Part shown: positions 15,876 through 44,218 of the stretch, piece by piece
Numbering within the stretch: the first letter of the stretch is position 1
Layout: each line of letters begins with the position of its first letter
NCBI GenBank assembly: GCA_033182465.1
Contig: CP137319.1
Location: 62,001-126,000 of the forward strand
DNA length: 64,000 nt
DNA from: Sanghuangporus weigelae
Taxonomy: Eukaryota; Basidiomycota; Agaricomycetes; Hymenochaetales; Hymenochaetaceae
Direction of reading: 5' to 3'
Made by a program: the position numbers and the translations under genes
Notes under the pieces: model-generated
Told to the model about the DNA's origin: nothing
Databases searched by the model: none
What the model saw: the letters and a program-made list of their open reading frames with translations, nothing else

Positions 15876-16050
15876 ATTGTTCATGCATAACGCAATGATA
15901 CTGACCTGGGTTAAGAGCGACACGGACGTTGTTCGCCCTTACCGTCGCGTGGTTCCCTTTAGGGAGAACCATCCTTCTCGCGATTTCTATTGCGGGTACC
16001 CAGGAAGCGTAGGCCGCACGTCTGTGGCCACCAAGTACGCCTACCCGACA

Positions 16051-17160
16051 ACCAGGACCTGGCCTGGGCGGTACATCGCCGTTTTGTCACCCCCGGCCGC
16101 GCTTTGCACCATATTGCGGTCTCCAGGATGAATACCCGACAGTTAAAACTTGGCCTAGGCGGCACATCGCCGTCTCGTCACCCTTCACCGCATTTCCCCC
16201 ATCATGGCGGTCCCCCAGGACGCGTAGGTTGCATGTTTGCAACTGTCGATACGCACACCCGACTACCAGGACCTGGCCTGGGCGGCACATCGCCGTTTCG
16301 TCATCCCCACCGCACATCGTTTCACGTTGCGGTCCACCAGGAAGCGTAGGTTGCACGCTTGTGACTTAATACGCTCACTCGACAACCAGGACCTGGCCTG
16401 GGCGGCACATCGCCGTTTCGTCACCCGGCCGCACATCGCTCCACATCGCGGTCTACCAGGACGCGTAGGTTGCACGTTTGTAACCGCCGATACGCGCACC
16501 CGACTACCAGGACCTGGCCTGGGCGGCACATCGCCGTTTCGTCATCCCCACCGCACATCGTTTCGCGTTGCGGTCCACCAGGAAGCGTAGGTTGCACGCT
16601 TGTGACTTAATACGCTCACTCGACAACCAGGACCTGGCCTGGGCGGCACATCGCCGTTTCGTCATCCCTGACCGCACATCGCGGTCCACCAGGACGCATA
16701 GGTCGTACGAATACGACTATTGAATACGCGCACCCGACAAACAGGACCTGGCCTGGGCGGCACATCGCCGTTTCGTCACCCGGCCGCACATCGCTCCACA
16801 TCGCGGTCTACCAGGACGCGTAGGTTGCACGTTTGTAACCGCCGATACGCGCACCCGACTACCAGGACCTGGCCTGGGCGGCACATCGCCGTTTCGTCAT
16901 CCCCACCGCACATCGTTTCGCGTTGCGGTCCACCAGGAAGCGTAGGTTGCACGCTTGTGACTTAATACGCTCACTCGACAACCAGGACCTGGCCTGGGCG
17001 GCACATCGCCGTTTCGTCATCCCTGACCGCACATCGCGGTCCACCAGGACGCATAGGTCGTACGAATACGACTATTGAATACGCGCACCCGACAAACAGG
17101 ACCTGGCCTGGGCGGCACATCGCCGTTTTGTCATCCCTGACCGCACATCGCGGTCCACAT
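16051..17160. repeat. Minisatellite, ten units of about 90-124 bp with a 355 bp higher-order period
   Basis: Each unit starts with a version of ACCAGGACCTGGCCTGGGCG, then ACATCGCCG. Units begin at 16051, 16141, 16265, 16385, 16506, 16626, 16740, 16861, 16981 and 17095. By the sequence after TTTCGTCA, units 3-10 fall into types in the order B A B C A B C C'. The block 16385-16739 (A-B-C) is repeated almost base for base at 16740-17094, giving a 355 bp higher-order repeat. Units 1 and 2 are diverged, and the last is cut off at the edge. The unit start contains an imperfect palindrome (CCAGGACCTGG). Long open frames cross the array on both strands because of its composition; I do not call them genes. 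Confidence 0.93.
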
Positions 17161-17417: not shown

Positions 17418-20400
17418 CTATGTTTGATGTTCAAATACCCAAAGAAAGTCGGAAAAAGCAAGCATATAACCGTCGTCGTCATCCTCATCACCTGCGTTCA
17501 TGACAATGTCCCCGACTTCATTGGTAGCTAATTTGACGTGGCTACTGTGATATCTCCTGTCAACGACACCATCGTCAGGATAATATCTTGCTGAAACTCA
17601 CTTGTCATTGATTTGACCCCTGATATGCGCGTCAGCCACAAGCTGCATCGCAATGCGCTGGACCTCATTCGCAACAGAACGAACACCATAATTGACATCG
17701 TACGACTCAGCCAGTTTGTGCACGACTGCAGCGGCAAGAAACGTAGCTCGGTCAGAGACGAGACACGATGATCTGTGAAGACATGGCATACCTTCGTCAG
17801 TCCAGGTCAGACTGATCTTATGTTTTTCTTTTGCCCGCTTGCTCCACATCTCCAGTTCGCGCTGGACAGTGACCTCGACCTCCTCCTGGCTGAGTGGCAA
17901 GAACACGACGATCTGGTTGATACGTCCGACGAACTCGTCCCGCCTTAGGTGATACTTGAGCTGTGGGCGGATTGAACGTATGAAACTTTGGATCAAGTGT
18001 AGGTAGGACTCAGGTCGCTCTTCCTTTTCCGACTGAGTTACGCCCTGGCGAAGCATCGACGCTGCGTTCTTGATCTCTTCCCCTGCGATATTTGACGTCA
18101 TGATGAAAATGGCGTCTTTGCAGGAGATCGTCCCATCCTTTGCATGAGTGAGTTAGATAGATCAGTAGACAAGACAACCGGAGCAGTACCTTTGAGTCCG
18201 TGACTCGACCGTCGTCGAAGACTTGGAGGAACGTGTTAAGAACGTCCGGATGAGCCTTTTCAATCTCATCCAACAAGACGACAGCCTTTGGGTTCTTCTT
18301 TAAAGGCTGCGTCAATGCACCGCCGTCTCCGTAGCCCTGGAAGTTGTCGGTATTCAAGGCGACGTTCTTTGCTGGATAAATTACTCACCACGTAACTCTT
18401 TGGTGCACCTAGACAGGAGAGTCGAAATAATTAACACACGTACTAACCCGGAGTGCGCTGGACTCTCACCAATGAGGTTCATAACGGTATGACGTTCCTG
18501 AAACTCGCTCATGTCGATCCTAACGAATCCATGTTCTTTCTCCAACTTGGCGATGCTCTGTCCCTTGTCCGTTGCCAATCCGTCCTTGCCGTGGAGGTAG
18601 AGAGCCAACTGTTTGGCTAATTCGGTCTTCCCGACACCCGAGCTACCGAGGAAGAGCATTGTAAGCGGTCGATCGGGATCTACCCAACCACCTTCGCGTA
18701 GTCGGATAGCATTCGCAATTAGGCGTATCGGGCCGCGTTGACCTACGAGCTTCTCTCCGATCTTGACCTCAAGTTCCAGCAAAGACTCTACGGTCACAAG
18801 TATTAGTCGAAGTAAGTAGAAGAATGAATGAGTGCTTACTCATCGACACCTTTGAGAGCGCTGTATCTTTTCCCCTTCTACTCGTATCGTCTTCACCATC
18901 CGAGCTTGCACTATAATCACTCTCGTTGTCTTCACTTTCATCCTCTTCGTCTTTCTTCTGCTTTCCCTCTTCAATCTTCCCGTTTCTTTCCTCCGCTTCC
19001 TTCTTCTCTTCTTCCGCTTCCTTCCTTTTCCTGCTTTCTGCGTCCCGAAGTTGCGCAAAAGCTTCTTTTATCTCATCACAGGTATTTCCGACGTTACGAA
19101 TAAGTTCTTCAGGCCTTCTCCCTCTTAGATCTCTAATCGTCCAATCTGCGCCAGCTTCAAGGAGTATCTTCGCAATATCCATGTCCTGCATGAGGCATGC
19201 ATAATGAAGGGGTGTCGCATTTTTCACATTAATGTGTGGAATCGTCAATGGAGCGAAAGAAATATGTGATGCGTCTGAATTATAGTCCGCACGCCTGTCG
19301 CATTTGTTCACCACAGACTTGTCCATTGAAACGAGTAGTTTAACGAAACGACGGTGTCGGCGGATCACAGCCAAGTGAAGAAGCGTAAAGTCATAATAGG
19401 TCATACACGAAACAAGGTACGGGTTCTTTTTGATAGAGCTGTTTAGGTTACAGAGTTAGAGCACGGCAAGGACGCTGGGCTCAGAAAAGCTTACTTTTCA
19501 AATTTCTCATACTTATTTTTTCGCACCAATCTCGCTAAGTCATCTGGTTTGGTGTACACTAAGCTCCAGTGAGTGTCATTCACAACTTCACAACATCCTA
19601 AGTAATTATAGAACACATACCCTTGAAGAGTTCCTCGTTTTCCTTCCTTTTGAGGTACAAATCGCGGAAGACAGTGGCCGCCTCCAAGTCTTGCCGAAGG
19701 TTCAAGTACTCAGTCGGATCGCGTTGCTTGCCGTCCTTTGCCTTCATCAGAGCGCCACGCTCCACAAGCATACGGATAATATCGGAGTTACCGACCATGC
19801 ATGCGTAGTGCAAGGGTGTTGCTCCGTTCGTGTCGTCTACGCGTGTTCCAAGTCCAGACTCACGGTCCACGGCCGTTAACGTTGATTGATAAACGGCATT
19901 GACGTCGGCTTTTGGGCATGCGAGTACTAGCTTCACAATTTCGACGTCACCCGACAGGACAGCGGCGTGTAATGGAAACCAGCCTCCCTCATGTCGTTTA
20001 CCCACGAGGCGCGGCGCGGCTTCCAGCATGCTGGGACGTGAAAGGGAGTATACAGAATTAGACGCCCATAAGAAGAAATAGTCAAACAAAACTCACCGAG
20101 AGACTGCCTTTGCGTCACGCTGCACAATTGCTCTACACAAGATCCGGACCGCACTCATCAAGCTTGACGAACCGACTGCTCGTTCAGAGACACCGAAAGT
20201 TGATTCACTGTCCTCACTATCTGACGATGGCGATACGGGTGAGCCATTCCTCTCCGCTTCATGACGATCGGCACAGTCCGAGTGGAGAGCCTGGAACCGT
20301 ACGTGTACGTCTTCGAGAGACACGGCTCCTCGTGCGACAGCCAGCAAGAGGTAAAGCAGTTCCTTCAAAACGGCAAATAGCAAGACTGCTTGCCTCACAG

Positions 20401-20458
20401 CCTCTGGACTGGCTTCGAGTTGACGTCTTACGATGGAAGACATAAAGCTGGACTCCAT
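17418..20458 (-). CDS. ANK-AAA+ disaggregase-like protein, array copy 1 (CLPB/SKD3 architecture), apparently intact
   Basis: Predicted ATP-driven protein unfoldase of about 840 residues. The start is MESSFMSS at 20458, 40 bases after a TATA box. Order: a hydrophobic helical segment ([21 protein letters not shown], residues about 23-42), an acidic Ser-rich stretch, ankyrin repeats 1-2 ([34 protein letters not shown]), a spacer, ankyrin repeats 3-4 ([36 protein letters not shown]), a Lys/Glu linker, then one AAA+ module. That module has Walker [22 protein letters not shown], pore loop PKSYVGYGDGG, Walker [14 protein letters not shown], sensor 1 [22 protein letters not shown] and sensor 2 YGVRS. 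The blocks [11 protein letters not shown] and RDEFxGRINxIVxFLP match human CLPB more closely than Hsp104/Hsp78. The 20-nt exon 18389-18408 encodes the pore-loop start. The tail NEVGDIVM...FSDFLWVF is shared by the array. About ten exons, all open. Localisation is unknown; the N-terminus is not a typical presequence. Confidence 0.85.
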
Positions 20459-20497
20459 GGCATATAGTTCGACGAAGGATGCAAGGAGCCTGCCTCC

Positions 20498-20504
20498 TTT
20501 TATA
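20498..20504 (-). promoter_or_regulatory. TATA box, array copy 1
   Basis: TATAAAA on the minus strand, ending 40 bases before the ATG at 20458, so the leader can only be about 10-15 nt. CGTTTTCGGA, just upstream, is shared with copy 2. Confidence 0.7.
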
Positions 20505-21376
20505 TGATCCAGCATCCGAAAACGAGGACGAAGGTAATAAGAAGCGTGGGTCATCCTTACTCTCGACCGCACTTCTAGCCTTCTCGCATTCATTCAAAGA
20601 TCGCTTCTGTGCAGTATAGATATGTCTCAGATCTCTCCGTCTTTATCTCTATTAAGTGGCACCTTTTTTGTAGTCTCGAGTCAGCACTGGACTCGATGAC
20701 TCGATGAAAAGCCCACCTTCATGTTTCGAGGCCAATGAAAGCGGTCTGGTGTTCCCAAGGTTGACTCGTGTCGGACCTGACCAGAACGTCATACGACCAC
20801 CCTATATCCCGGAGCAACGAAGAAAAGCATGAGCACAATGGACACGGTTGAGGAAATGGGAAAATGACTTGCATCGCTTAATCCCGGTGTGGCCGTACCA
20901 GCGCCTATTTGCTTTATCGATCGATAACACCGCCGTCTATCAATTCCGAAGGCGGAAATTCTCCGAGATATCGATCATGGCCGATTCCAGAACATGGAAA
21001 ACGTGTGTATTTAGCCTATCAGTGACCGTAAAGAGGGTTGGCTCGACCAGGGACGAAGGAGCCCAATAAATATCCGAAAGTGACGACTGATAATGATTTA
21101 ACTAATGACATGAAGTACGAGGAAATTCATTTGGAGGATAATATCAAGCAACTTTGTAAAAGACGGCGACGGCTAGTGTTGTGTGTGTTGGTTGAAAATG
21201 AGAGGCGTTCTGGTTCGGGCAATGATAGATGATCAATAGATCTACTATTATGGAAATACAAATGATCAGCACTTCCAACGTAAGACACTCCGATTACTAA
21301 AACACAGAATTTCATTGTACTATTTAGAATCCAAGTTTGCATTTACTAGTGGATGCGACAAAATAGCTCTGCTAAG
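20505..21376. other. Spacer between array copies 1 and 2
   Basis: Upstream region of copy 1. The part near 20670-20705 (AGTCAGCACTGGACTCGATG) resembles the upstream region of copy 3 near 28195-28230, so promoters were copied with the genes. No gene seen. Confidence 0.5.
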
Positions 21377-24246
21377 CTATGCGAAGCACCAAAGGAAATC
21401 AGAGAAGTAACCGTATCCATCCTCAGGAACCTTTGAACATGCTTTCATAACAACATCGCCAACCTCGTTAGTCCCCAGCTCGGCCTGCCAACTACGATGC
21501 ATCGGGTCAGTCCATATTTTCCGTGATATTTAATGTATTCCGTAAAGACTCACTCGTCTAAGAGTTGTCCCCTAATGTGCGCGTCAGCAAAGAGTTGCAT
21601 CGCTATTCGCTGCACCTCATTCGTGACAGAGCGTACACCATAATTCACATCATAAAACGATGCCAGTTTACGCACAACTAGAGAGAAGAAATGAGGGATG
21701 CGATCACTAGAAGCAGATAACGACAGTTGAGTACCTTCATCGGTCCATGTTAGCTTGATCTTATGCTTCTCTTCAGCCCGTCTGCACCACATAGCCAGCT
21801 CGCGTTGAACAGCAGTCTCAATCTCTTCTTGGCTCAAAGGCAAGAAGACGACGATTTGGTCAATGCGTCCAATGAACTCGTCACGTTTCGGGTTGACGGA
21901 GCATCGGCGCAGCATTCTTGATTTCTTCACCTGCAACGTTCGATGTCATGATGAAAATAGCATCTTTGCAGCAAATCACTCCGTCCTGTAAACGAGTTTC
22001 GTCCAGTTTGTAGATCGGACGAAGGAAAAATGACGTACCTCTGAGTCCGTAATACGGCCATCGTCGAAAACCTGGAAGAATGTGTTCAAGACATCGGGAT
22101 GCGCCTTTTCTATCTCATCCAGTAGGACGACAGCTTTGGGATTCTTCTTCAATGGCCGAGTCAATGCACCTCCATCTCCATATCCCTGGAATAATACTAC
22201 ATCAGACACTGGTATGCTTTGCTGTGGAATAGACTTACCATGTAACTCTTTGGTGCGCCATAGAGAGATGGCAACTACGTCAGAGTACATCTCAGTCAAA
22301 AAAGGCATTGTGCCTCACCAATGAGATTAAATACGGGATGAGGTTCCTGAAACTCGCTCATGTCAATCCTTACGAATCTGTGATTCTTCTCCAGTTTAGT
22401 GATGCTTTGGTCCTTGTCTGTCGTCATTCCATCCTTTCCATGGAGGTACAGGGCGAGCTATTTCACCAACTCTGTTTTCCCGACGCCCGAGCTGCCCAGG
22501 AAAAGCATCGTAAGAGGTCTCTCTGGATCGACCCAACCGCTTTCCCGGAGCCGTATTGCTTGCGCTAAAGATCGAATAGGATCGCGTTGGCCAACGAGTT
22601 TTTCGCCAATCTGTTTTTCGAGCGAGTAGGGCTTCTGCAAGGACAAATTGATTGACACGAGCAAGCAAGGTAAATAGTGCTGAGAGTACTCATAGATACT
22701 TTTGACGGTGAATCATCGTCAGCATCTACATTCATATCGGGCTATTTAGTATCGGTTCTGCCAGAAGGATTTGAGTCTGCACGATCTCAGCTTACCATCA
22801 TTGGATTGCCTTAGCTTCTCTCTTGCTCCCGTCTCCTCTCTTCTTCGGCATGTCTAAGGCGCACGAAGGTACTCTTCATCTCATAACAAGCATCCTCAGG
22901 TCCATGAATCATATCCTCCGGAATTCTTCCTTCATTGTCCTCGATGTTCAAATCCGCGCCAGCTTCAAGCAGCATCTGCGCAATGTCCATGTCTTGCACG
23001 AGACATGCGTAATGAAGAGGTGTAGCTTTCCTCACGTGTCTGTGTGGAATTGTGAGAGGAGAAAAAGAAGACGAACCTGAACTGTATTGCTCATACATGC
23101 CATTCTTTTTTACTCCCTTACAACGACTTCGAACGTCGCACTTGTTCATTAGCGTCTTGTCTGTTGAGACGAGCAACTCGACGAAGAGACGACGCATACG
23201 GATACCAGCCAGGTGGAGGAGTGTGAAGTAGTCATCGGTCATTCTCGAGGCAAGATCCGGATACCTTTCTATAGTACTAATTCGTCCAAAAATGAGAGTT
23301 CTGTATAGGAACGGATCGAATTGAAAAGGCACTCACCGTCTAAACGTCTCATACTTGTCTTTACGTATCAGTTGGGCCAGATCTTCAATGTTGTTCTACC
23401 CTACCCGACAATCAGCGTCTTCATCCTTCTGGCCATAGCTGTCGAAATATACAAACGTACTTTTGAAGAATTTGTCGTGTTCCTTCCATTTAGAATACAT
23501 GCTGCGATAGCATCTGATTGCTCCTGAGTGTCAAATTAGTCAGTTGGTTCTCGTTGCTCAGCATCCTTGGCCTTGAAAAGGGCACCATGGTCCACAAGCA
23601 GACGGTTTATGTCGACATTAGCAATCATGCAAGACAGATGCAGAGGAGTTGCCCCATTGATGCCATCCAGGAGAGTTCCAAGTTCGTACTCACGATCCAA
23701 GGCCGAGATAACTTTCCGGTTCTCAAGAGTTTGACGAGATCGACATCACCGGACAAGACAGCAGCATGTAAAAGAAACCAGCCTCCTCTTGTCGCTTGCT
23801 CGCAAGTCGCGAATTAGCTTCCAACATGCTTCAACATAGAAGGATGAACTAATAAAAGCGATAAGCGCCCCGCCAAGTGGACAAACTTAGCCGTGCATTC
23901 ACGAAGACGCAGCCTTGAAGCCACGTTGCACAATCGCCCTACATAGTTTTCGGACTGCACTGATGAGCCTCAGATTTTCAGCACGGCCCGTGCGGTCGCA
24001 CGTCGATTCACTGTTACGACTCTCCGATTTGAACAATTCAGGCGAGTTGCTACGTGCTGCGTCGGAAGAGGAAGTGTAGTTGGCTTTCAGAGCCTCGAAC
24101 CGAGCGTGTACATCCTCGAGCGCGACGTTCTCTCTCAGGACAGGCAGACAGAGGCTGAACAACTCCTTGAAAATAGCAAGGAGAAGAAACGCTTGCTTCA
24201 ACACGTCGGGATTGATCTGAAGTCGCCTTGTTACGATGGAAGTCAT
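21377..24246 (-). pseudogene. ANK-AAA+ array copy 2, decayed
   Basis: Same exon order as copy 1, starting MTSIVTRRLQINPDVLKQ at 24246 and ending ...FSDFLWCFA at 21377. Several independent lesions mark it as a pseudogene. A TAG at 22458-22460 follows Walker A ([12 protein letters not shown], then stop where other copies have QLA). About 100 bp between MLR and KRDEF near 21900 is missing, with loss of frame. The acceptor of the pore-loop microexon reads ATG instead of AG near 22259. The first ankyrin pair (about 23520-23820) is broken into different frames, and its middle is shortened. The second ankyrin pair ([20 protein letters not shown]) and the lid region are still clear. Its TATA box is retained. 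Confidence 0.85.
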
Positions 24247-24296
24247 AGAACTAGAGTCCTTAGCAGTTTGGGATGAGGACGAAGAGGAACCAGATG

Positions 24297-24304
24297 TTTA
24301 TATA
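24297..24304 (-). promoter_or_regulatory. TATA box, array copy 2
   Basis: TATATAAA on the minus strand, 51 bases before the ATG at 24246, with CGTTTTCGGA upstream as in copy 1. Confidence 0.6.
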
Positions 24305-25023
24305 CCATCACCTGTCCGAAAACGTGGACACACAGCCACGATACCAAAAGGTGAGAGTAGTACAACTCATGGATCATGTTGGTGCAGTTGACGGTCTGAA
24401 TCATTAGATTCTATCGATTCCCATTGATATTAGCCCTCTTTGGCGTGTCCATGCAAATACCCTAGATACTTCCATATGAACTTGGTGATTGTTTCGAAGA
24501 GCCAAAGACAGATCTACAGATGCAAGCTATGGGTTCAACACGAGTGAGGAATCAATCAAAGATGGCCTGCACTGGTTCAATTGACTTGCTTTGGTTGAGA
24601 TGCTGTACACCTACTATTTGCACTGCACCATGCCTCCTCGTTGCGACCTATCGGGCACAACGGGTTGAAGCTGAATCCTGTAAACGATAGTTTACGGATT
24701 TGAAATGTCGATATGGGCGTCTATTCAGCTCAGAGTTTGAAAAAAGAACGAACTCACGTACCCCACGAGGCAGGAAATAAGTACGAACTCCAGTGCGCAG
24801 GTGCTCCATGTATAAGTCGTGTATAGCGAAGGGTCAAAGAAGCAAGTGAACAAGCTTTGATTAGTATGTACCACTGTATCGATAGATTATGATCACCGCG
24901 GGGAATGCTTACATAACCACAATCATGGCTACTGTGTCTATTTATGCACTAACTAAAGCAAAGCTGCTTACTATCTAAAGTACTTTTTGTATAGTATACA
25001 TCGTGGAACGCCTCGAAGAACAT
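24305..25023. other. Spacer between array copies 2 and 3
   Basis: About 0.7 kb, AT-rich toward 24900-25000. No gene or repeat recognised. Confidence 0.45.
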
Positions 25024-27961
25024 CTACTCGAAACAATCCTCAGAATCGGGGCGTGCGTTCATAACGATATCACCGACTTCATTTACAGTCAACTCGGCTC
25101 TCCAACTAAGGATAGTTCCATCAACAGGACTTTATATGGTACGCTGTCGTGCATGGACTCACTAGTCAGAAATACGGCCCCTGATATATGCATCAGAAAC
25201 GAGCTGAACCACGATGCGCTGCACCTCATTTACAACAGAACGTACTCCATAATTGACATCGTACGATTCTGCTAACTTTTCCACGACTAAATTAGATTCT
25301 CATCAGCTACGAAGAACATGGCCAGAAAACGATAAGCGTACCCTCGCCTGTCCAAGTCAAATTGATTTTGTGTTTTTCTTCGGATCGCTTTCGCCATGTC
25401 TCCAATTCGCGATGAATAGCGAGCTTGATTTCCTCCTGGCTCAGAGGTAAGAACACGACGATCTGATTGATACGCCCGACGAACTCGTCCCGTTCCAGAT
25501 GTTGTATTAGCTCTGGTCTGATTGACCGCGTGAAGTTCTGAATAATGTGTATGTAGGACCCAAGTCGCCCTTCTTCCTCCGATCGAGCTATCTCTTGGCG
25601 AAGAGTCGGTGCCGCTTTCTTAATCGTTTCCGCAGCGATATTCGATGTCATGATGAAGATGGCGTCTTTGCAAAATATCGTTCCATCCTGCACATGAATG
25701 ACACGTTGAATGAGACACAAAATAAGACGGCATTGTGCAGTACCTTTGAATCTGTGATGCGACCATCGTCGAAGACTTGTAGGAAAGTGACAAGTGCGTC
25801 GGGATGAGCCTTCTCGATCTCATCTAACAGGACGACGGCCTTCGGATTCTTCTTCAAGGGCTGCGTCAACGCACCACCATCCTCGTATCCCTGTATATAA
25901 CAGGCGAAATCGTCTATCGTGGCGGAAACTCACTATGTAGCTCTTCGGTGCGCCTTTCAATTATGACAACAGAGTCAATACGAGTTTCATTTGTCTGAGC
26001 AGTCGTCTCACCTATAAGATTCAGGACAGTATGCTCCTCTTGGAATTCGCTCATGTCAATCCTCACAAACCCATGAGCCTTCTCCAGATCAGCGATGCTC
26101 TGACCCTTGTTTGTCGTCTTTCCGTCTTTGCCATGAAGGTATTGGGCCAGCTGTTTCGCAAGCTCTGTCTTCCCGACTCCAGAGCTTCCAAGGAAGAGCA
26201 TCGTCAGGGGTCTATCCGGATCTACCCAACCGCTTTCACGAAGTCGAATAGCATTCGCTACTAAATGGATAGGCCCAAGTTGGCCTACGAGTTTAGCTCC
26301 AGTCTCATCTTCGAGTGAAAGTAGGGAGTCTGAAAATGCCGAGTATAGGTCAATTAGTGGACTAGTGCAAGAAAAACAGCCGACATCGCACCCATGTGCA
26401 CCTTTGAGGGAAGGTAATCCATACCCGCATGACCATCTCCCTCAAAAAACTCGCACTGTGAAATTGAGTCTCCGAAGCTCTCAGCTTCCATATAACTATT
26501 CCTTCCACCTTCCATCCTATCCTCTTCCGCTTCACACCTTTCGTTGTCCAAAAGGCGGATGAATGCACTCTTAACCTCATTGCAAGATTCGTCAACAGCG
26601 CGGATAAGCTCCTCAGGAGTCCTTCCTTTGAAATCTTTAATGTTCCAATCCGCGCCAGCCTCGAGTAGCATTTCAGCAATACCCATATCCTGCACTAGGC
26701 ATGCGTAATGTAGAGGAGTCGCATTTTTCACATACGTATGTGGGATCGTTGGTGGCGCAAAAGAAATATGTAGGGATTCCGAGGTATAGTCCGCCCGCCT
26801 GTCGCATTCATTCACTAGAGATTGGTCCATCGAGACGAGCAACTCGACAAAACGACGATGCTGACGAATGACGGCCGGATGAAGGAGCGTAAATTTCCCT
26901 TGGACCATTTTTGAAGTAAGATCCGGGTTCTTTCTAATAGAGCTACATGAATTTACAATGTCAGGGAATGGTCAAGGATTGCGTTTGTCTCAAGATACTC
27001 ACTCCTCGAACACTTCAAATTTATCCTATATTATTGTAACAGCTGCGCCAACTCGTCGACATTATTATATCCTAATCTCAAATACTTGTCACAAACACTT
27101 TCAAAGAGAGCTGAATCATTACGCATACCTTTGAAGAGCTCTTCACGCCTTGTCCATTTGAGGTACAGATCACGGAATACAAACGGCTGCCTCCAGGTCA
27201 TGCAGAATGCTGAAGTACTCGACCGGAACGCGCTTTTTATCGTCTTCGTGTTCAAAGAAAGCTCCATGTTCAACAAGCAGACGGATAATTTCAGCATTGC
27301 CTACCATGCACGCAAAATGCAAAGCCGTTACCCCGCTAGTATCTTCAACGTGAGTCCCGAGCTCGCATTCGATGTCTACCGATGCTCCTGTTGATTTGTA
27401 AACAGAAGTGATGTCGACATCCGGACATGCAAGGATGAGTTTGACAATCTCGATGTCACCAGACAGGACAGCGGCGTATATTGCGAACCAGCCTCCTTCA
27501 TGCCTTTTACCCACGAGGAACGGTGCGGCTTCTAGTATGCTAAGGTGAAAAAATGCAATTAAGTATCAATATAAAGAAATAATCAAAAGGACGGTTCACC
27601 GAGAGACTGCCTCCACATCGCGCTGGACGATTGCTCTGCAGAGGATCCGGACGGAACCCATCAACTTCGAAGACCCGACAATGGGATCAGAGCCATCGGA
27701 GGTAGGAAGATTGCCTTCGGTGTCTGGCGAGGGTGAGATGGGCGGGTCACATCTGTCTTTTTCGGGAGCCTTGGCGTAGTCCGAATGGATAGCTTGAATC
27801 CGAACATGAGCGTCTTCAAGAGAGAGGCTTCCTCGTGCGACGGAAAGCAGGAGGTAAAACAATTCTTTCAAGATCAAAAGAAGGAAGAACAATTGCTTCA
27901 CTGCCTCTGAACAAGGTTCGAACTACCGCTTCAGGACTGAAGATGTACGCTCGGAGTCCAT
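25024..27961 (-). pseudogene. ANK-AAA+ array copy 3, decayed
   Basis: The start MDSERTSSVLKR at 27961 is followed by an in-frame TAG at 27923-27925 where copy 1 has CAA. A one-base insertion near 27180 breaks the frame after HDLEAAV in the first ankyrin pair, and the exon reading DELAQLLQ meets a stop near 27035. The AAA+ half is well kept: Walker [10 protein letters not shown], Walker [14 protein letters not shown], sensor 1 [20 protein letters not shown] and YGVRSVVNEV are all readable. The end ([19 protein letters not shown], stop 25024) is shorter than in other copies and lacks the FSDFLW block. The better state of the AAA+ half could mean recent inactivation or expression of a shortened product; neither is shown by the sequence. 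Confidence 0.8.
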
Positions 27962-27998
27962 GATCAAGTTAGCAGAGTCTTCCTACAGGATGCAGGCC

Positions 27999-28005
27999 AT
28001 TTATA
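27999..28005 (-). promoter_or_regulatory. TATA box, array copy 3
   Basis: TATAAAT on the minus strand, 38 bases before the ATG at 27961. Confidence 0.6.
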
Positions 28006-28959
28006 GCTTTCCAAATCTCTTCTTGGAGGGGACTACGGTACCGCTGGAAAACTTATAGACCTTCTCTCGCATGTTCCATCGGACTTCTCACATTCCTTCA
28101 AGTATCATTGATGGCGGCTCCTGATACGCATGAGTTCTAGACTGCAAGACCTCCTATGAGAACCTGCAGGGGAGTCTTTTTTGCAGATCCTTGGAGTCAG
28201 TACTGGTCATACTGACTCAGTCGAAAAACTTACCGCAGTCACACCGTGTCTTTTGATTCGATTGAGGCGCTCCGAAACTACGAAAAGTTGACCCAGAAGA
28301 CCCGAAGGAGCGTCAATGAGAGGGATTTGCGGCAGGAAGAACGCATGAGCTCGGATGACTCTGCTGAAGAAGCGATGAACATACCCATATGATGTAATGC
28401 CAGACTTCTTTTGCCCTCCACCGCCTATTGGCTTTATTGATTGGGCCAATTGCTTAATCCATCGGGTTGATGCGACCTCAAGCATAGGTGAGAGAGCGAA
28501 GTAAAGCACGGTAAAGCATGGTACTCTGCATTAGAAGATCAAGGGGTCATGGATATCCGAGGGATATGTATCTTCAGTATAGAGATGCCGACAAATCGAC
28601 TAGCAAAATAACGCCGCGGGAGGAAGAAAGTCACCATTTTATGAGAACCATTGTATGATGAGTTTGTTCGAAAGGGAAAAATTGTAATTCACCGTCGGCT
28701 GAATCGGCTCGGACAGACATGAAGACGCCAGCGATGGACGTCCAAATTGGAAAGTGATCGACTGATTCGAGTCAAATTTCGTCTTTGTTCAAATTTCATG
28801 AACTGATTTCCCTTCGATGAAAACTTAAATATCCAGGATATATCTCAAGTAAGACTTTCACCCCTGATGCGTACAATACAATGATACTGCAGCTTGACTT
28901 TCCAAATCCGCCATAAAGAAATACTGTACATTCCAGATACAGTGGAGCGTACTAGTTTC
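28006..28959. other. Spacer between array copies 3 and 4
   Basis: Upstream region of copy 3, with the block near 28195-28230 shared with copy 1. No gene recognised; the 100-codon frame at 28207-28509 has no motif. Confidence 0.45.
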
Positions 28960-31900
28960 TTAATCTTCAAAACTCCAAAGAAAATCTGAGAAGATATCGA
29001 CGCCATCTTCAGGCCTCGCGCAGCCCTTCATTATAATGTCACCAACTTCATTTATCGCCAATTCGGCTTGCCAGCTGTAGAAGTCAATGTTAATACTACT
29101 CATGTCGGAACGTCCTTCACGGACTCACTTATCGGAAATTTGGCCTCTAATATGCGCGTCGGCAACGAGCTGCAGCGCAATCCGTTGCACCTCATTGGCA
29201 GCAGATCGAACACCATAATTGACGTCATAAGACGCGGCTAACTTGCGGACAACTACAACGACACAAACGTATACGTTCCGTGAGTAACCCAAAACCCAGA
29301 GCAAGACAGAAAGCATACCTTCGTCCGTCCAGGTCAGATGGATCTTGTGCTTTTCTTCTGCACGCTTGCACCACATGGCTAGCTCACGCTGTACAGCAAC
29401 TTCAATCTCTTCCTGGTTCAGAGGCAAGAATACGACGATCTGGTTGATGCGGCCGATAAACTCATCCCGTTTGAGATGACATTTAATCTGCGGACGGATG
29501 GAACGAGTGAAGTCCTGGATATGGTGCACATAGGATTCGGGCCGTCCTTCTTTCTCCGACAATTCCACCAGCTGACGAAGCCTCGGAGCAGCGTTCTTGA
29601 TCTCCTCTCCTGCGATGTTCGACGTCATGATGAAAATGGCATCCTTACAGGAGATCATTCCATCCTATTTGGACAGTAAGCTCAATAGACCTGTCGATAA
29701 AGCACAGTATTATACCTTTGAGTCAGTAATACGTCCGTCGTCAAAGACCTGCAAGAACGTGTTGAGCACATCCGGATGAGCCTTTTCAATCTCATCCAGT
29801 AGGACCACGGCCTTCGGATTTTTCTTCAGGGGCTGAGTCAATGCTCCACCATCGTAATACCCCTACAAAGCGTCAATTTACGCAGTGAAGTACTTATAAT
29901 GAACGAACGTACCACGTAGCTCTTCGGAGCGCCTGTAAAAGGCAGAGTCTCGATTAGTACTTAGTTCACTCTGCAAGTGTATTTTCCCTTACCGATAAGA
30001 TTAAAGACGGTATGACGTTCCTGAAACTCACTCATGTCAATCCTCACGAACCCATGATCTTTCTCAAGCTTGGCGAGGTCCTGTCCCTTGTCTGTCGACA
30101 TTCCGTCTTTGCCATGCAGATATAGGGCCAGCTGCTTCGCAAGTTCTGTCTTTCCGACGCCAGAGCTGCCGAGGAAGAGCATTGCAAGAGGTCGATCGGG
30201 GTCTACCCAGCCACCTTCGCGCAGTCGGATAGCGTTCGCTATCAAACGGATTGGGCCACGTTGGCCTACGAGTTTATCGCCAATTCTATCTTCGAGTAAG
30301 AGCAAGGACTCTGTAAGGAGGACAGGTACGTAAGGCGTCAGAGTAAAATGTTTAGCTAAGTGCATACCCATGGAAACTTTGGTAGGCACTTCCTTGTTCA
30401 CATCTATAAGTACCAGGACATGAGAATCATCCAATACCAGAAATTTCAAGGGCGGACACACCAGCTGCTTCAGAACTATTGTCACTTTCGTCATCCCTTC
30501 GTTTACCCCCCTCATCTTTCTTCGCTTTCTCTCCATTCTCCTTCCTCTTCTCCTCTTCAGCATCTCGAAGGCGTACAAATATGCTCTTTACCTCATCATC
30601 CGTTTCATCAATGCGTTGAATCAGGTCTTCAGCTAACCTCCCTTGGCTGTCCTTGATGTCCCAGTCTGCGCCTGACTCAAGCAGCATTTTTGCGATGTCC
30701 ATGTTCTTCACGAGACATGCATAGTGAAGAGGCGTAGCACGCGTCACATGCTTGTGAGGAATTGTTACCGGAGCGAAGGACGAAAGAGACGATTCCGAGC
30801 TGCTATAGTAACACCTGTCACGTTTGTTAACCATCGATTTATCCATCGAGATGAGCAACTCGACAAAACGGGAACGCTGGCGAACGACAGCCAAATGAAG
30901 AAGAGTGAAATCGCGGTACGTCATTCTTGTCGCAAGATGGGGATTCTTTTTTAGTGACCTGATACAACGCACCATTAGAAGTGAACAGTCTTATGCAACT
31001 GCGGCAACACTTACTTCTCAAACACTTCATACTTGTCCTTCTTTATCAATTTTGCCAAACTATCAACGTCATTGTATACTAAGGGCCGATAGTTGAGTCC
31101 GTCTTTCTGATCCATGGCGATCAAGCGTTGTGCACGTACCTTTAAAGAATTCCTCGCGTTCCTTCCACTTGACGTACAGATCCTTGAAAGCAGCGATAGT
31201 TTCGGAATGCCGGTCGAAATCAAAGTACTCGATTGGCCTTCTCTGTTTGCTATCATTCGCCTTCATTGAAGAGCCATGTTCCACGAGCAGGCGGATAATA
31301 TCTATGTCACCGGTCATGCAGGCAAAATGCAAGGGGGTAGCTCCGTCTGTGTTGTCGACGCTCGATCCGAACTCACGTTCCCGGTCCACAGAAGCCGACG
31401 TTGAGTTGTACGCGGCATTGACATCCACCTTGGGGAACGCAAGCAAGGATCTAACGACCTCGAGATCGCCGGTCAGGGCGGCAGCATGTATTGGGTACCA
31501 GCCTCCTTCGTGCCGCTGCGCCACTAGACGCGGTTCAACTTCAAGTATGCTGAGATGTGGGGTAATAGTTAGCGCTGGAATAGTAGACTTTATGAGTATG
31601 TGTCCCCTTACCGGGTTACAACCTTGATGTCACGCTGTACGATTGCCTTACATAGCTTTCGGACAGCGCTCACGAAGCCTTGGGCCGTGGACCGATCCCC
31701 GATGTCGCAAGTCGACTCGCCTTCACGAGAATCCGACGATGATGAGAGAGGTGAGTCACTTCTTACACCGTCCGAAAATAAACGGCCGTCCGCTTTCAAA
31801 ACCTCCAGCCGTGCTCGAACATCTTCAAGAGACACGTTCTCCCTCAAGAGGGGAAGTAAGAGGTAGAGCAGCTCTTGAAGGATGGAAAGGAGCATGAAGG

Positions 31901-31970
31901 CCTGCTTTATTGGTTCAGAAAATATCCCGAGCCGTTGCTTTTCGATGGAGGATATGGAATCGCACGACAT
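28960..31970 (-). CDS. ANK-AAA+ disaggregase-like protein, array copy 4, apparently intact
   Basis: Second readable member of the array, starting [17 protein letters not shown] at 31970 and ending ...[10 protein letters not shown] at 28960. Ankyrin pairs: [21 protein letters not shown] / [20 protein letters not shown] and [19 protein letters not shown] / [20 protein letters not shown]. The AAA+ module has [54 protein letters not shown] and YGVRS. The pore region reads SYVGYYDGG, where copies 1, 2 and 5 have GYGDGG. The charged linker is open only if an additional 58-nt intron at 30404-30461 (GTGTGT...TTATAG) is removed, which joins SSEAA to [12 protein letters not shown] in frame. The frame then agrees with copy 1 across the next intron. 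All other junctions match copy 1, including the pore-loop microexon with acceptor ACAG. Confidence 0.82.
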
Positions 31971-32006
31971 GATAGAGTTGTTACAATGGGGATAGAACCT
32001 GGACTT

Positions 32007-32012
32007 CTTATA
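32007..32012 (-). promoter_or_regulatory. TATA box, array copy 4
   Basis: TATAAG on the minus strand, 37 bases before the ATG at 31970, with CACGTG about 20-25 bases further upstream. Confidence 0.55.
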
Positions 32013-33650
32013 GCGTCCTTGAGAGGTTTCCACGTGTCCGTAGTCTTTGGTGGCTGAAAATATTTCCTTTCGTCTGGGCCAACTTACTACATTATCCAGG
32101 CATAGCATTGGGCCAATGGCCACGCTTTCTCGATGACCTATACCTTATCTCTGAACAAACAGCACCGCCTGAAGAGAGGGGGGGCATTGTATAAGCATAG
32201 CACTGCTCATCGGAGTCGACAGAACTTACATGAACTGACCAGAAATCATCAAACCGCAACTTCTAGTCGGACCAAGATCAGAGCACGCCTGTGCACAAGA
32301 CCTGGAAAATAGGCTGTGCCATGGCCCCATTGGGATATATCAGAACACAAAAGATGGCCGTCCTTACAATTACTGCAATGGAAGCAACGGGGGACTGGCC
32401 TTTGCCACCTAGTCAGGATTCGGCTGTAAATAGGCCAGTGTCTATCGATCGCTCCGCACCGCCCCAAGTTGCAAGACCAGTTCTTGGTGGTCAAAATGAG
32501 TGGCCTGACTGAGACTAAACTCTGTCCTCGGTGATTCGCGGAGTCACGGACATGTATATATATGAGCGTTTATCGTCGATTCAGCGTACGTACGGAAACA
32601 GTACTAGAACTGGTGGAGAACTGGTTCGGCGTATTGTTGTCAGCTCGCATATTGTACATTCAGAATAAATACGCGAAACTGCACTGATGATGCCAAAGGA
32701 GGAGGTGCGAGAGGTAGGAACCACTGGCAGGGCAGGAGAACGTTCAAGGTCAAAAACACGATCGCAAGGGATCGACGGCGTGGTGAATACAGGATCGTCG
32801 TACCATATATGGGTGAGCATCTGATCGCTCTGTGAGTCTGTCTAGAAACCGTATGTGAAAAAGGCAGTCACTGCGGCACGTCCTTTACTCTTGCTACGGA
32901 TTTCGCCCTTATCAAATTCTCAAGCTCTCGACACGATCTTCCGTTCCTATAGTATCAAACCGCAAGTAAGTAAAATTCCAGCTCATGCAGTGGGTCTAAT
33001 TCAGAAAGGTAGGTGTAACAAGATATTCTCGTACTGATGCTAATCAGATATGACCTAGAGATGCATGCACACGGCAGTTGAGTCTGTTACGCTGATGAGA
33101 CGGTGTCGTGGGGACTTGAGGTGGAAGATCACAAAACTTACAATATATATATATATATATATTTTATTAACAAACGTTCGCGAGAACTCTACAGACCGCA
33201 CATTGGTCAAACCTTAATCCGGACTGGGGTTGTTTCGTAGCTGTCCGAGCGTCTACTTGAAATTCGTCTACTGATGACAGCGTTCACACACTGCGCCCTA
33301 TAATGGTGAACTTGCTGCATCCTCAAGGCAGACAACACATCCATTTCAGTCTAAGCGCGGGATCGTCCCTGGCGTCCGAGTCAGTGTTCCTTTCTGCCTA
33401 CATCTGATGGATACAAAGATGTATAAACAACTTCTTCGGATCCTCCATTGTCTCCTTAGAAATCACAGATTGATTCGAGTTATAAGGATCCACCCTCTTC
33501 CTCTTGGCCGTCACTTTCAGTGTTTTATGCTCGCCCTAAACACCACTCCAAGGAGTACGCAAAAGTTTATCACAATCAACACCGTAAAGTTTTGTGCAAT
33601 GAGTACGTACATACAACGCAGAATAAGCCCCTAAACTATGTCCTTACTTC
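32013..33650. other. Spacer between array copies 4 and 5
   Basis: About 1.6 kb, the longest gap in the array. It contains an (AT)10 microsatellite at 33143-33162. Small open frames only; I recognise no gene. Confidence 0.5.
33143..33162. repeat. (AT)10 microsatellite
   Basis: Ten uninterrupted AT dinucleotides in the spacer between array copies 4 and 5. Confidence 0.9.
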
Positions 33651-36600
33651 TTATTCAGCGAAGGTCCAAATAAAGTCTGAGAATGCTTCTAGATATTCCT
33701 CCTCACCATTGTCCTCAGGCTTAGCGCTTGCGTTCATCATTATATCGCCGACTTCATTTAGCGTCAACTCGGCCTGCCAGCTAAGTACATCTATGTCAGT
33801 GAATTAGTGCATGGCCAGGTCTCAGCAGGAACTCACTTCTCCGAAATTATGCCCCTAATGTGCGCGTCTGCGATTCGCTGCACTTCATTGGCAACCGAGC
33901 GCACTCCGTAGTTCACGTCGTATGATGCCGCCAGCTTTCGGACAACTAGACGAACAGCAAGATGCTTTCTCAGAAATGCCATCTTTAAAAGGAAGAATTA
34001 GTTACGTACCTTCGTCGGTCCAGGTTAGCTTGATTTTATGTTTCTCTTCCGCTCGCTTACACCACATAGCCAACTCGCGCTGGACAGCGACCTCAATTTC
34101 GTCCTTGTTCAAAGGCAAGAATACGACGATCTGGTTGATGCGTCCAATGAACTCATCCCGCTTCAGGTGCTGTTTAAGCTGCGGACGAATCGAGCGTGTG
34201 AACTCTTGTATTAGATGAACATAGGATTCGAGACGTCCTTCTTCCTCATACTGCATTACCGACTGCCGAAGCCTAGGTGCTGCTCTCTTAATCTCCTCCC
34301 CAGCGATATTTGACGTCATGATGAAGATAGCATCCTTGCAGTAAATCGTTCCATCCTGTTCAAAGATGAAGTATAGGTCAGCTCATTAGATCCGTCGATG
34401 GAGAGGAAGGTAATATAGATGCCTTTGAATCCGTGATACGTCCATCATCAAAGAGTCGCAAGAACGTAGTGAGCACGTCTGGATGGGCCTTCTCAATCTC
34501 ATCCAACAGAACAACGGCTCTAGAATTCGCTTGTAACGGCTGCGTCAATGCTCCACCATCCCCGTATCCCTGGGATCATTACATTATGGCTTGGAATTAT
34601 TCTCATAGGATAGACGTACCGCATAACTCTTCGGAGCGCGTACATGTCCAATCAGAGACCTTTCCATATATCAGCAGAATCGAGACATACCAATGAGATT
34701 CTGCACGGTATGCCGCTCTTGATACTCACTCATGTCGAGCCTCACGAAACAGGAATCCTTCTCCAGATTGGTGACACTTTGGCCCTTGTCCGTTGCAAGT
34801 CCATCTTTTCCATGAAGGAAAAGGGCCAGCTGTTTCGCCAACTCTGTCTTCCCAACTCCCGAACTACCGAGGAAGAGCATCGTGAGCGGTCGATCAGGAT
34901 CTACCCATCCACCTTCGCGCAATCGGATGGCATTCGCTATTAAGTGGATTGGCCCGTGTTGACCAACGAGTTTCTCACCGATCTTGTCTTCCAGTCCAAG
35001 CAAAGTGTCTATGAGGACGGAAGTTGACTTGGAATCAATAGTTGAACAAAAAGAGTGTCTAAGTGCGTACCCGTGGATACTTTCGCGGAAGGAATGTTAC
35101 TTTTATCCTTATCCTCATCTCCATCCTCGTCTGAATCGGATTCATCGTCTGAGAACAAGACGCTAGAGGTCGCGTCATTTGGCTCCCTCTCCTTATTATC
35201 TTCCTTTGGACGTTCTTCAACCGACGTCTTCCTTCTCTCTTCCTCCTCTCTTCCTCCACTTTCAGGAGGCGTGCAAACGTGCTTTTCATTTCATCGGCAC
35301 CCTCTCCCGCTTCGCGAATCAGCTCTTCAGGTCTCCTGCCTTGACTGTCTTTAACGGTCCAATCAGCACCAGCTTCCAGAAGCATTTTCGCAATATCCAT
35401 ATCCTTGACAAGGCACGCGTAATGAAGAGGAGTCGCTTTCCTCACATGGTGGTATGGGACTGTCGGAGGTACGAAAAGGATATCCGTTCCCTCAGACGAC
35501 ATGGCATCCATGCAACAGTGGTTTCTCGGGTTGTGCAACAAGTCAGACTCCGATCTGCGCTTGTCGCATCTGTTCACCAAGGTCTTGTTCGTCGAGATCA
35601 GCAATTCGACAAAGCGACGTCGTTGAAGGAGGACGGCCATATGAAGGAGGGTGACATGGGTGCATGCTTTCTTTGAAGCAAGTTTATGATTCCTTTTGAT
35701 GGTGCTATTTCAATTGACCATGTCAGAACCTGACGAAGAAATAACCTCTGGGTACCATACTCACCGCTCAAAAAGTTCATATCTGTCCTTCCACATCAAT
35801 TTAACGAGCTCAAGAAAACCGGTGTAATCTATCAAATAAAATGATTGCGATTCGTTCGTGCGCCATCAGAGAACCGAGCAGACCTGGTTGCCTACCTCTA
35901 AAGAATTCATCCTTTCTCTTCCATTCATTATAGAGGCGTTTGAAAGTCGCAATAGCCTCCGCATTCTCCTCGAACTTGAAGTAAACGATTGGCTTGCGAC
36001 CTTTTTGGTCCTTTATCTTAAAACCAGCACCATTTTCAGCAAGCAGGCAGATGATTTCGACGTTTCCAGTCATAGCAGCAAAATGCAGAGGGCTTGCCCC
36101 GTTTAAGCTATCAACGTTGGATCCAAGTTCACGTTCCCGTTCCCGTCCATCATAAAAAGGGTTGTACTCGAATAGGACGTTGACGTCCACTCTAGGACAC
36201 GCGAGTACATCCTTGACGAGTTTGCTATCCCCAGTCAGGACAGCGGCATGTAAGGGGTGCCAACCTCCTTCATGTTCTTTACCAGCGAGGGACGGCCTAT
36301 TTTCCAGGATGCTGTGTATCAAGAAATTGCGACATTGATAAGCGCCCGTTCATGAATAGTTACCTGATAACCTTACCTGGATACCTTTTCAACATCACGA
36401 TGTACTATTGCCCTACAAAGCAACTGTACAGGATTGAGCACGCTCGAGGACTCGTCGGCGGCCTCGGAAGTACGGCTTGAAGCCGTGGACTCGTTATCTT
36501 GAGAGTCGGGCAGTGAGATCGCCGGAACCTCGCTGCATTCTTCATCTTGGGCAGAGGACCCATCCGTAGGCAGAGCCAAGACTTTTGAATGCACGTCTTG

Positions 36601-36726
36601 GATTGATGTTGTTCCTCGTAAGAGAGAGAGCAAGGTGCGAAATAATTCCTGCGCAGTAGCCAAGAGCAAGAAAACCCGCTTGACGACCTCCGGGATAGAC
36701 TCGAGTTGTTTTTCGGTAGTAGACAT
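33651..36726 (-). pseudogene. ANK-AAA+ array copy 5, probably inactivated recently
   Basis: Starts MSTTEKQLESIPEVVK at 36726 and ends ...FSDFIWTFAE at 33651; all domains are present and mostly readable. Three features argue against a working copy. In the charged linker (about 35230-35300, a purine-rich tract) the ankyrin frame runs to a stop, while the acidic linker and the AAA+ part lie in another frame with no convincing intron between. The acceptor of the pore-loop microexon has lost its AG (TAC before GCGCTCC, near 34640). The donor after [10 protein letters not shown] has changed from GT to GC near 34420. Walker A (GSSGVGKTE), Walker B ([13 protein letters not shown]), IFIMTSN and [14 protein letters not shown] are intact. 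A GC-AG intron and a real N-terminal ankyrin-only product remain possible, so the call is less certain than for copies 2 and 3. Confidence 0.65.
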
Positions 36727-37769: not shown

Positions 37770-38896
37770 ATGGACTCGTCAGATTTATACCACGTAAAAC
37801 AGCAATTCACTCTTGGTACGGTCATTTCATCTCAGTAATTACTTGGAAATGTAATATTTATTCCGCAGGCGCGTACAAGTCTCTCGCGAGCCTCACCCTC
37901 CCAGACGTCTCCTCTCCGGACTACGTGTCATTAACGTTCTACAAAGCCCGCTCTCTCATAGCTCTCGGTCGTGCATCCAACGTTCTACAACTCATCTCGC
38001 CAAACTCCGACTCTCTTTCTCTCAAAGCAGTTCGTGCTTTGGCAAAGTACGTACAAGAGGAAGAAGGAGATGGGGATAGAGATGCTCCCTTGGAAGAACT
38101 GAGAGATTTGTGCGTGGAAGTTGAGGGAGATGAAGTGGATGTGAAGGAGAGGTGGAACGTACGCGTTGTTGCTGCAACTGCTTTTGCTCGTGCGGGAGAG
38201 ATCGAGGAGGCGCTTGAAACGTTGGGTGTAGGTACTAACAACGAGTCTCTCGAAGCGTGGGTGGCCACTCATTTTCAGCTACCGCTTGGACAGAACTAAC
38301 TCTGCCCGCTAGTATCTCACTAGTCGTCCAAATCTACCTCTCCATTTCCCGACCCGACCTGGCAAAGAAAGAACACAGCCGCGCACTCAGCTGGGCAGAA
38401 GACGATCTCCTCCTCCAATCCATCGAAGCCTTCCTCGGTCTCTCCACAGGAACAGACGCTTATGCAGACTGCACCGCCTTCTACACAGAGCAACTCGGCA
38501 ACCCTTCACTCGCTTCGTCGCATTTGCTCACGTCGCGTGGAGTGAGCAGGCTGATGAAGGGCGAGGTGGGAAGTGCGCGTTCAGATTTGGAAGAGGTGCT
38601 GAGGAATAGTGAGAACGAAGAGAAGGAAGAAGGAGAGGAGGAAGCACTTTGTGCTGCTGTTGTTGCTGCTGGACTTGACGGGGCGAAGAAAGGCGAAGCG
38701 GAAGAGTTATTCAGGTAGGAGCTCATTTTCTCTTGTTCCGAATGAATATTGCTTTCTGATGTATTTCTCTAGTCGACTTCAGAAAAAGTATCCATCCAAC
38801 CCTCTCGTCCGAGATGTTCAAGAAAAGAGCGTCTTATTCGACGAACTTGTGCCCAAGTTTGAGGTGCCTCCATTAGCCATAGCTTCACGAGCATAA
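37770..38896 (+). CDS. COPE: Coatomer subunit epsilon (COPI coat)
   Basis: Alpha-solenoid subunit of the COPI coat that stabilises alpha-COP in Golgi-to-ER transport (yeast Sec28). Exon 1 is MDSSDLYHVKQQFTL at 37770-37815, intron 37816-37868, then YKSLASLTLPDVSSPDYVS, the conserved start of the TPR-like domain. The second intron, 38257-38312, joins NNESLEA to ISLVVQIYLSISRPDLA, a family hallmark. The third, 38715-38772, joins EELF to SRLQKKYPSNPLVRDV. The end KFEVPPLAIASRA is typical. About 290 residues, the usual length. All introns are GT-AG and in frame. A decayed second copy lies at 44720-46260. Confidence 0.94.
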
Positions 38897-42869: not shown

Positions 42870-44218
42870 ACATTGACCTACGCAAACAAGGTAGTTCGAA
42901 CGCAAGCCAAAAACTATCCTTCCGTTCATACATTGTACTGCAAATATGAAAGCGGGATCGGAACTACCGTCCGAATATCAAAGCAAGAAAGAATGAGACC
43001 GACCTGCAGAATCAAAAGAGTTGCCCAAGGTGTAGTTCCATGTCCTTATCAAGGTACTGGTAGTACCCCGTATAACGGAATCCTCATCACCATCATCGTA
43101 TCGGCAATCGCATTTCACAGTCAGTTCATGACTTCCGCTTACCGAAGAAGACATACCGTTTGAGTTTACCGGACGCACCAGGCGCGCGAAGGAGATTGGG
43201 CAGCGAGTGAACAGTTTTGAGGACGGAACTCATGACCTGGTGTACATATACACATCAGTAGCTGGTTTACCCCGAGAACTTACGGGAATCGCGCTTCCGA
43301 CCGTCAATCTCATCCATGTGACGACGACGTGAAATGACTGGTCAAGAATAGAATCTATCCTCGACCGGTCATTTCACATTGTCGGCACATAGAGTCGAAG
43401 CTGCTCCGCGATCTCTGGATTCGAGTTCCATTCCGAGAGTATATCGAAGACTAGGCCTAGACCGGGAAGCATGTGCCCCGGCAGCCTGCAGGGGATGGAT
43501 TTGTTGTACGCTTCGGGCATATGCAGCACCTGCCTTACCCATGTCCGGAAGATTCACATTGTTGTAAGAGCCGTCTGCTAACCGCAAGGATGAAGGTGGA
43601 TGCATGAGGTCGTTGTATACTATGAAGTCCACCCATTACCGAATAAGTGATCAAAAGTAGAAATAGAGATTGATCAGCCTAAAAAGGTAAAGTTACGTTC
43701 GAACTTTAAGTGAACTTACACGATGAAACAACAACATTCTGCAGCTTTGTCTCAAGCTGGATGTCAGGTGGTGTGTTCGCCATCAACAGGAGGGAATTCT
43801 CGAGCTACACGATGCACAAAAAGTCAGGCATATTGACAACTTAGAGCCGGATGAGATGCGGTACCAGCATCTTGCGGTCATCGAGGTTATTGAGATTTCC
43901 GACAGAATCGAGAACACTGGATAGCATTTGAGGGTCCAAGGCGATAGAAGATCTTTCTTCGTCTACGCATGCACACAGTGTTACAAAAGGGATCTCAATA
44001 TCAGGTGACGAGCTCACGAGTCCCTTGGCCTTGGGAGTCTTCAATACATCTGAATGCGACCCGTTTCCGTTGGAAGCCGCGTCTGACGGTTTAGAGTCGC
44101 CAGACTTGTTCTTGGATAGAGGCATGAGCCGGCAGACGCAGTCACATAACACGAGGACAGTGTAGACGTACGTATATTGCGATGCACGACGCGTAAATCG
44201 ACGTTGCAGAGAGCTCAT
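42870..44218 (-). pseudogene. Ppo fatty-acid oxygenase pseudogene with large internal deletion
   Basis: Joins a copy of the 5' end of the intact Ppo gene (MSSLQRRFTRRAS at 44218, SKNKSGDSK, ALDPQMLSSVLDSVGNLNNL, DGSYNNVNLPDMGKAG near 43550) to a copy of its 3' end (about 42870-43260, covering the MSSVLKTV and YQYL regions). The whole heme-peroxidase core and most of the P450-like part, over 3 kb of the intact gene, are missing. A short block near 43270-43340 (CTTACGGGAATCGCGCT) instead matches the 49.68 kb region of the membrane-protein locus. No oxygenase activity is possible from this copy. Confidence 0.85.

Follow-up and report, generated by a model that had tools for sequence, protein, structure and literature searches.

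The window analysed here, a 64-kb stretch of fungal DNA, carries five homologous genes, all on the minus strand, running from the ATG of copy 5 at position 36726 down to the end of the copy 1 stop codon at 17418; both bounds are exact. The tandem array described in the initial annotation is real, as attested by an alignment of all five copies, by the exact coordinates, and by repeat families that recur five times at a spacing of ~3.6-4.7 kb. According to the same alignment, every copy comprises ankyrin repeats, a charged linker and one AAA+ module of the ClpB-D2 type (Table 1). The gene model of copy 4 was built manually from splice sites and served as the template for the other copies in a splice-aware protein-to-DNA alignment, which for copy 1 ran through without a frame break or stop. 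Like copy 4, copy 1 has ten introns, nine of them at the same aligned codon and in the same phase; the fourth lies at codon 449 in copy 1 and 444 in copy 4, again in the same phase, within the poorly alignable linker. The modelled introns range from 43 to 77 nt over the whole array and from 50 to 66 nt in the two intact copies, and since introns are common to the copies, the array is attributed to tandem duplication of DNA and not to retroposition. Neither Rfam families nor tRNA genes were found in scans of the window.

Table 1. Coordinates of the array and its principal features within the 64-kb window.
Feature	Position	Strand	Description
Copy 1, intact	17418..20458	-	11 modelled exons, 818 aa; ATG 20458, stop ends 17418; exon-joined translation
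Copy 2, decayed	21383..24246	-	6 frame breaks, 2 in-frame stops, ~31 AAA+ codons lost
Copy 3, decayed	25024..27961	-	codon 13 a stop, frame shifted near 27181, exon 3 garbled, tail cut short by an early stop
Copy 4, intact	28960..31970	-	11 exons, 811 aa; splice sites set by hand and recovered by the aligner
Copy 5, decayed	33651..36726	-	acceptor of intron 6 lost, donor of intron 8 GC in place of GT, 5 AAA+ codons lost
Copy 4 N-terminal hydrophobic 19-mer (aa 24-42)	31845..31901	-	Kyte-Doolittle mean 2.02
Copy 4 ankyrin module A (aa ~104-256)	31140..31661	-	hhalign, Foldseek
Copy 4 ankyrin module B (aa ~257-420)	30532..31078	-	hhalign to module A; fold comparison weaker
Copy 4 AAA+ module (aa 456-774, exons 6-10)	29129..30310	-	49% identical to human CLPB; motifs
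Copy 1 AAA+ module (exons 6-10)	17602..18787	-	87% identical to copy 4 module
Copy 4 TATA-like box	32007..32012	-	42 nt upstream of ATG; found by eye
Walker A-helix insert	copy 1, 18730-18600 region; copy 4, ~30120-30050	-	matching places in other copies

Only copies 1 and 4 are intact, and the picture of five working paralogues is not supported, as copies 2, 3 and 5 all carry lesions. One of the in-frame stops of copy 2 falls seven residues past Walker A. The AAA+ exons of copy 3 are still open despite its lesions. In intron 6 of copy 5, none of the three candidate AG dinucleotides preserves the frame, and retention of the intron yields a stop. Single lesions could be sequencing errors, an explanation that is unlikely for copy 2 because its lesions are numerous. 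The decayed copies have accumulated more unique replacements in the AAA+ module than the intact ones in all five comparisons (35 versus 9, 31 versus 13, 29 versus 11, 31 versus 7 and 32 versus 12; binomial p 0.0001-0.01), comparisons in which a third copy is the assumed outgroup and which share rows, so that they are not independent. Between copies 1 and 4 there is no such difference (18 versus 12, p 0.36). For the ankyrin part, these comparisons gave 40 versus 28, 27 versus 26, 38 versus 36, 46 versus 35 and 61 versus 29, with little difference except for copy 5. The array is losing genes at present, copies 2, 3 and 5 having lost the capacity to encode a full protein only lately.

The duplications themselves are old, since silent sites are near or at saturation (overall pS between copies 0.66-0.77). 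A local amplification had been proposed earlier; its local, tandem nature holds, but the event is ancient and the array is now shrinking. Conservation is much stronger in the AAA+ module than in the ankyrin part: a comparison of copies 1 and 4 gives a dN of 0.08 in the AAA+ module, 0.25 and 0.28 in the ankyrin modules and 0.51 in the N-terminus. Omega, where estimable, is 0.03-0.08 for the AAA+ module and 0.10-0.24 for the ankyrin modules, values that indicate purifying selection on both and, within that range, give no sign of diversifying selection on the ankyrin modules. Client-specific recognition by the ankyrin repeats, which change faster than the AAA+ module, is possible.

The AAA+ module is of the CLPB kind. 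Pfam families detected in copy 4 are AAA_2 (4.7e-45), Ank (9.2e-27) and ClpB_D2-small (1.5e-7), and a phmmer search of PDB sequences placed CLPB first (294 bits, E 2.1e-86), ahead of the best bacterial ClpB (180 bits), ClpC (173 bits) and the best Hsp104 (149 bits). Identity to human CLPB over the module is 49%, as against 43% for the best bacterial locus (among the best 80 of 563 confirmed); 2245 plasmid records match, all at <60% identity, the best among the matches listed reaching 41.6%. A tree of 32 rows (3 fungal, 2 animal CLPB, 2 Hsp104, 21 of the best 80 bacterial loci and 4 of the 28 viral loci) united the fungal and animal CLPB rows in one branch, apart from Hsp104 and bacterial ClpB/ClpC, with a support of 100/100 that the long stem of this branch (2.23) could inflate, in a tree of long branches and a sampling without Hsp78, choanoflagellate or other fungal sequences. 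All 108 bacterial and viral ORFs, as read and with some cut by contig ends, lack the motifs RDEFxGRIN and CKDAI. The affinity with CLPB proposed from the motifs in the initial annotation is thus borne out by search scores, by a tree that sets the fungal modules with CLPB and not with Hsp104, and by the distribution of the motifs.

Each copy has a single Walker A motif. In copy 4 this reads GSSGVGKT, and the pore-loop segment is [33 protein letters not shown]. Walker A and B, the sensors and the pore-loop Tyr are present, and the catalytic and pore motifs are kept in all five models when these are read through the lesions. No second AAA+ module was found, with one AAA_2 stretch in copy 4 by Pfam and one Walker A. 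The fungal copies have an insert of ~15 aa after the Walker A helix that is absent from human CLPB and from the CLPB of 8zr0. Among the bacterial relatives (best 80 of 563 confirmed), most contain a pair of Walker A motifs. Such a pair, in a CLPA/B/C-like layout, is also found in 23 of the 28 viral ORFs, an approximate count as some ORFs are cut, and these 23 were counted as ordinary Clp proteins. The viral locus L028 (59% over 74 aa), a fragment of a standard Clp protein where a phage contig ends, was left out of the comparison.

The ankyrin part departs from the first description. Each copy had been described as ankyrin repeats split 2+2 as in human CLPB, followed by a charged linker and one AAA+ module; the order of ankyrins, linker and single AAA+ module stands, but the ankyrin repeats number about eight, not four. 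Alignment resolves them into two tandem four-repeat modules, A and B, with weak outer repeats, and the 'repeats 1-2' and 'repeats 3-4' named earlier seem to correspond to the strong repeats of modules A and B, respectively. Module A aligns with the whole human CLPB ankyrin domain in its order of repeat, repeat, interruption, repeat, repeat (hhalign E 3e-13, 134 columns), and module B repeats the layout of module A (E 7.1e-19, 137 columns) and itself aligns with the human domain (E 1.2e-9, 101 columns). Since ankyrin profiles are generally alike, these E-values overstate kinship to SKD3, and the common position of the interruption is the better clue. In human SKD3 isoform 1, the available text of one study describes the interruption as a hairpin-helix on the concave face and a proposed substrate site (PMC10090083).

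AlphaFold2 models of two contiguous exons reached mean pLDDT values of 72.0 and 76.9, the five models of module A spanning 39-72. The predicted modules A and B have a similar order of elements and a long helix at the end of both; the interruption is modelled as a helix in module A and is poorly defined in module B. Among the 50 Foldseek matches listed of 1118 for module A, the SKD3 ankyrin domain (8deh) had the highest TMq (0.71, the next being 0.66) and ranked 21st by E-value. For module B, SKD3 entries came 10th and 27th (TMq 0.52 and 0.54), behind TRPV5/6 (up to 0.59). At the level of residues the interruption bears a weak likeness to CLPB: shuffle tests gave p<0.05 in 3 of 10 cases for module A and in 0 of 10 for module B, and the spacer motif REREF, compared with REDDF, is suggestive in copies 4 and 1 only and was not taken as proof. 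Alignment and predicted fold together support an SKD3-type ankyrin domain in module A, with less support from the fold for module B.

A hydrophobic 19-mer precedes the ankyrin part in all five copies (Kyte-Doolittle mean 1.58-2.33) and is followed by a Ser/acidic stretch. All five also have a TATA-like box, read by eye, 42-60 nt upstream of the proposed ATG. A presequence is marked by an excess of basic over acidic residues. The first 30 aa of copies 1 and 4, counted from the ATG that the promoter spacing favours, hold three basic and three acidic residues, a charge balance unlike that of a mitochondrial presequence. A role in the intermembrane space, though possible, is not supported by the N-terminus as read from that ATG. 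Translation of copy 1 or 4 from a more distant start that adds a presequence is less likely, judged from the TATA spacing, yet still possible, as in both intact copies the open frame continues, with more ATGs, upstream of the favoured start. No convincing heat-shock elements were found upstream of the copies; copy 4 has one site with one mismatch, copy 2 has none, and the others have two mismatches.

The products resemble animal CLPB/SKD3 in having a hydrophobic stretch ahead of an N-terminal ankyrin domain that is interrupted between repeats 2 and 3, then a linker and one AAA+ module in which the motifs [11 protein letters not shown] and RDEFxGRIN, the pore-loop Tyr and about half of all residues are common to both. 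They differ from it in the second ankyrin module, the insert after the Walker A helix, the multi-copy array, the Ser/acidic stretch and the apparent lack of a presequence from the favoured ATG. Hsp104 and bacterial ClpB belong with them to the HCLR-type AAA+ disaggregase family, and it is to the second AAA+ module of those proteins that the fungal module is homologous. Unlike the array genes, Hsp104, Hsp78 and ClpB combine two AAA+ modules with a middle domain and lack ankyrins, and Hsp104 and bacterial ClpB scored lower and stood apart in the tree (Hsp78 not sampled). A fungal parallel may be the Sordariales orthogroup OG0007227, which a survey of NLRs in that order mentions in passing and sets aside in the available text; it is described as having ankyrins N-terminal of an AAA domain and ClpB_D2-small, with UBA_4 and Clr5 also reported, so that by description, the one basis of comparison, homology is a guess (PMC12258605).

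As a whole, the data are best explained, with a probability we consider better than even, by members of the CLPB/SKD3 (ANKCLP) lineage that have a doubled ankyrin part, lie in a tandem array and encode a stand-alone disaggregase likely situated outside the intermembrane space. Their ancestor would be one ANK-AAA+ fusion common to fungi and animals; the ankyrin domain would then have been duplicated within the protein, and the gene duplicated in tandem long ago. The products of copies 1 and 4 may form rings that act as ATP-driven threading unfoldases or disaggregases of the SKD3 kind, with the pore-loop Tyr gripping the substrate. SKD3 is a stand-alone disaggregase whose activity requires ATP, the pore-loop Tyr and the ankyrin domain, according to the accessible parts of three reports (PMC7343390, PMC10090083, PMC9934407). 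Like SKD3, the fungal proteins would work with a single AAA+ module, and given that no middle domain for the docking of Hsp70 was recognised in them, such docking is not expected, as reported for SKD3. Substrates or partner proteins could dock on the two ankyrin modules, which may also govern how rings assemble with one another, and the doubling would serve to widen or stack the docking of substrate. The probable site of action would be the cytosol, or a membrane reached through the N-terminal hydrophobic helix.

The most serious alternative, which we nevertheless regard as unlikely, is horizontal transfer of CLPB from an animal or other holozoan into the fungus, followed by duplication of the ankyrin domain and of the gene. 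The published record is patchy in a way that would suit it: in the accessible text of Erives and Fassler the ANK-AAA+ fusion is placed in stem holozoans and ANKCLP is reported only in holozoans, with five fungi sampled (PMC4339202), and our tree, with two animal rows, cannot place the fungal sequences inside or outside the animals. Any such transfer must be old, given the ten introns, the saturated divergence between copies and the ~50% difference from human CLPB in the AAA+ module, and OG0007227, if homologous, suggests a wider presence in fungi (PMC12258605, in the text available). Quite improbable is a part in recognition or immunity, in which the genes would form an NLR-like array whose variable ankyrins detect non-self and whose AAA+ module serves as a switch. 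The tandem copies, the faster change of the ankyrin part and N-terminus and the three dying copies would fit such a role. Against it stand an AAA+ module of the CLPB type with the translocase pore-loop Tyr kept, the ankyrin omega of 0.10-0.24 where estimated, and the Pfam result for copy 4, which contained no NACHT or NB-ARC family at E 0.001. Fungal NLRs have a NACHT or NB-ARC domain and then C-terminal repeats, an order opposite to that seen here, and the placement of ankyrins N-terminal of the ATPase is the reason given in the accessible part of the Sordariales survey for excluding such an orthogroup from the NLRs (PMC12258605). Least probable of all is a separate joining of a fungal ankyrin protein to a ClpB-type AAA+ module with convergent likeness to CLPB, for although ankyrin repeats are common, the doubled layout is unlike CLPB, the spacer residues are mostly not CLPB-like and the folds of module B rank other proteins first, the AAA+ module itself groups with CLPB and has motifs in common with it that the bacterial and viral ORFs lack, and module A follows the SKD3 ankyrin domain collinearly, sharing the place of its interruption and giving it the top TM-score among the 50 matches listed.

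One fusion common to fungi and animals is much likelier than independent fusion, and the choice between the two, which the initial annotation had declared itself unable to make, now leans to shared ancestry on the strength of the AAA+ tree and the collinear module A. Such a fusion conflicts with the published stem-holozoan origin and with the statement, in the available text of one paper, that SKD3 is absent from microbes (PMC10090083); Cupo and Shorter, in the portion accessible, have the fusion first appear in choanoflagellates (PMC7343390), and the accessible part of an HSP100 phylogeny mentions neither ankyrin nor Skd3 (PMC12283024). No paper on a fungal SKD3/CLPB was among the matches listed in a search of PMC titles and the beginnings of abstracts, and annotators may well hold such sequences in protein databases. 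Whether SKD3 predates the split of animals and fungi, persisted in some fungi as a non-mitochondrial protein with doubled ankyrins and took up its human job in the intermembrane space as a later specialisation is, to our mind, evenly poised. The fungal member would be a natural comparison for asking which parts of SKD3 are ancestral, namely the single ankyrin module, mitochondrial import and the hydrophobic stretch.

The surroundings of the array contain repeats and duplications of their own. GC-rich tandem repeats lie just downstream of copy 1 at 16000-17160 (TRF 16151-17160, periods 122, 241 and 355; reaching back to ~16000 by self-blastn), and a tandemly repeated open stretch on the plus strand (14979-15317 and 15495-15824, 69% DNA identity) adjoins this satellite. 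On the other side, the array is adjoined by a local family of alcohol acetyltransferase genes (PF07247) at 39272-40891, 46583-47848 and 52265-52724, with one open member and two partial, probably decayed ones that are 59-78% identical per piece; the alcohol acetyltransferase family is mainly fungal. Other neighbours encode a PBD-kinase, dihydroorotate dehydrogenase, coatomer epsilon and an M16 peptidase. These neighbours and the shortness of the introns point to a fungal source, whereas comparing the dihydroorotate dehydrogenase carried no lineage signal. Two further diverged duplications pair 43438-44646 with 56804-58017 (77% DNA identity) and 37941-38498 with 44876-45427 (72%), the latter including part of a coatomer-epsilon-like gene.
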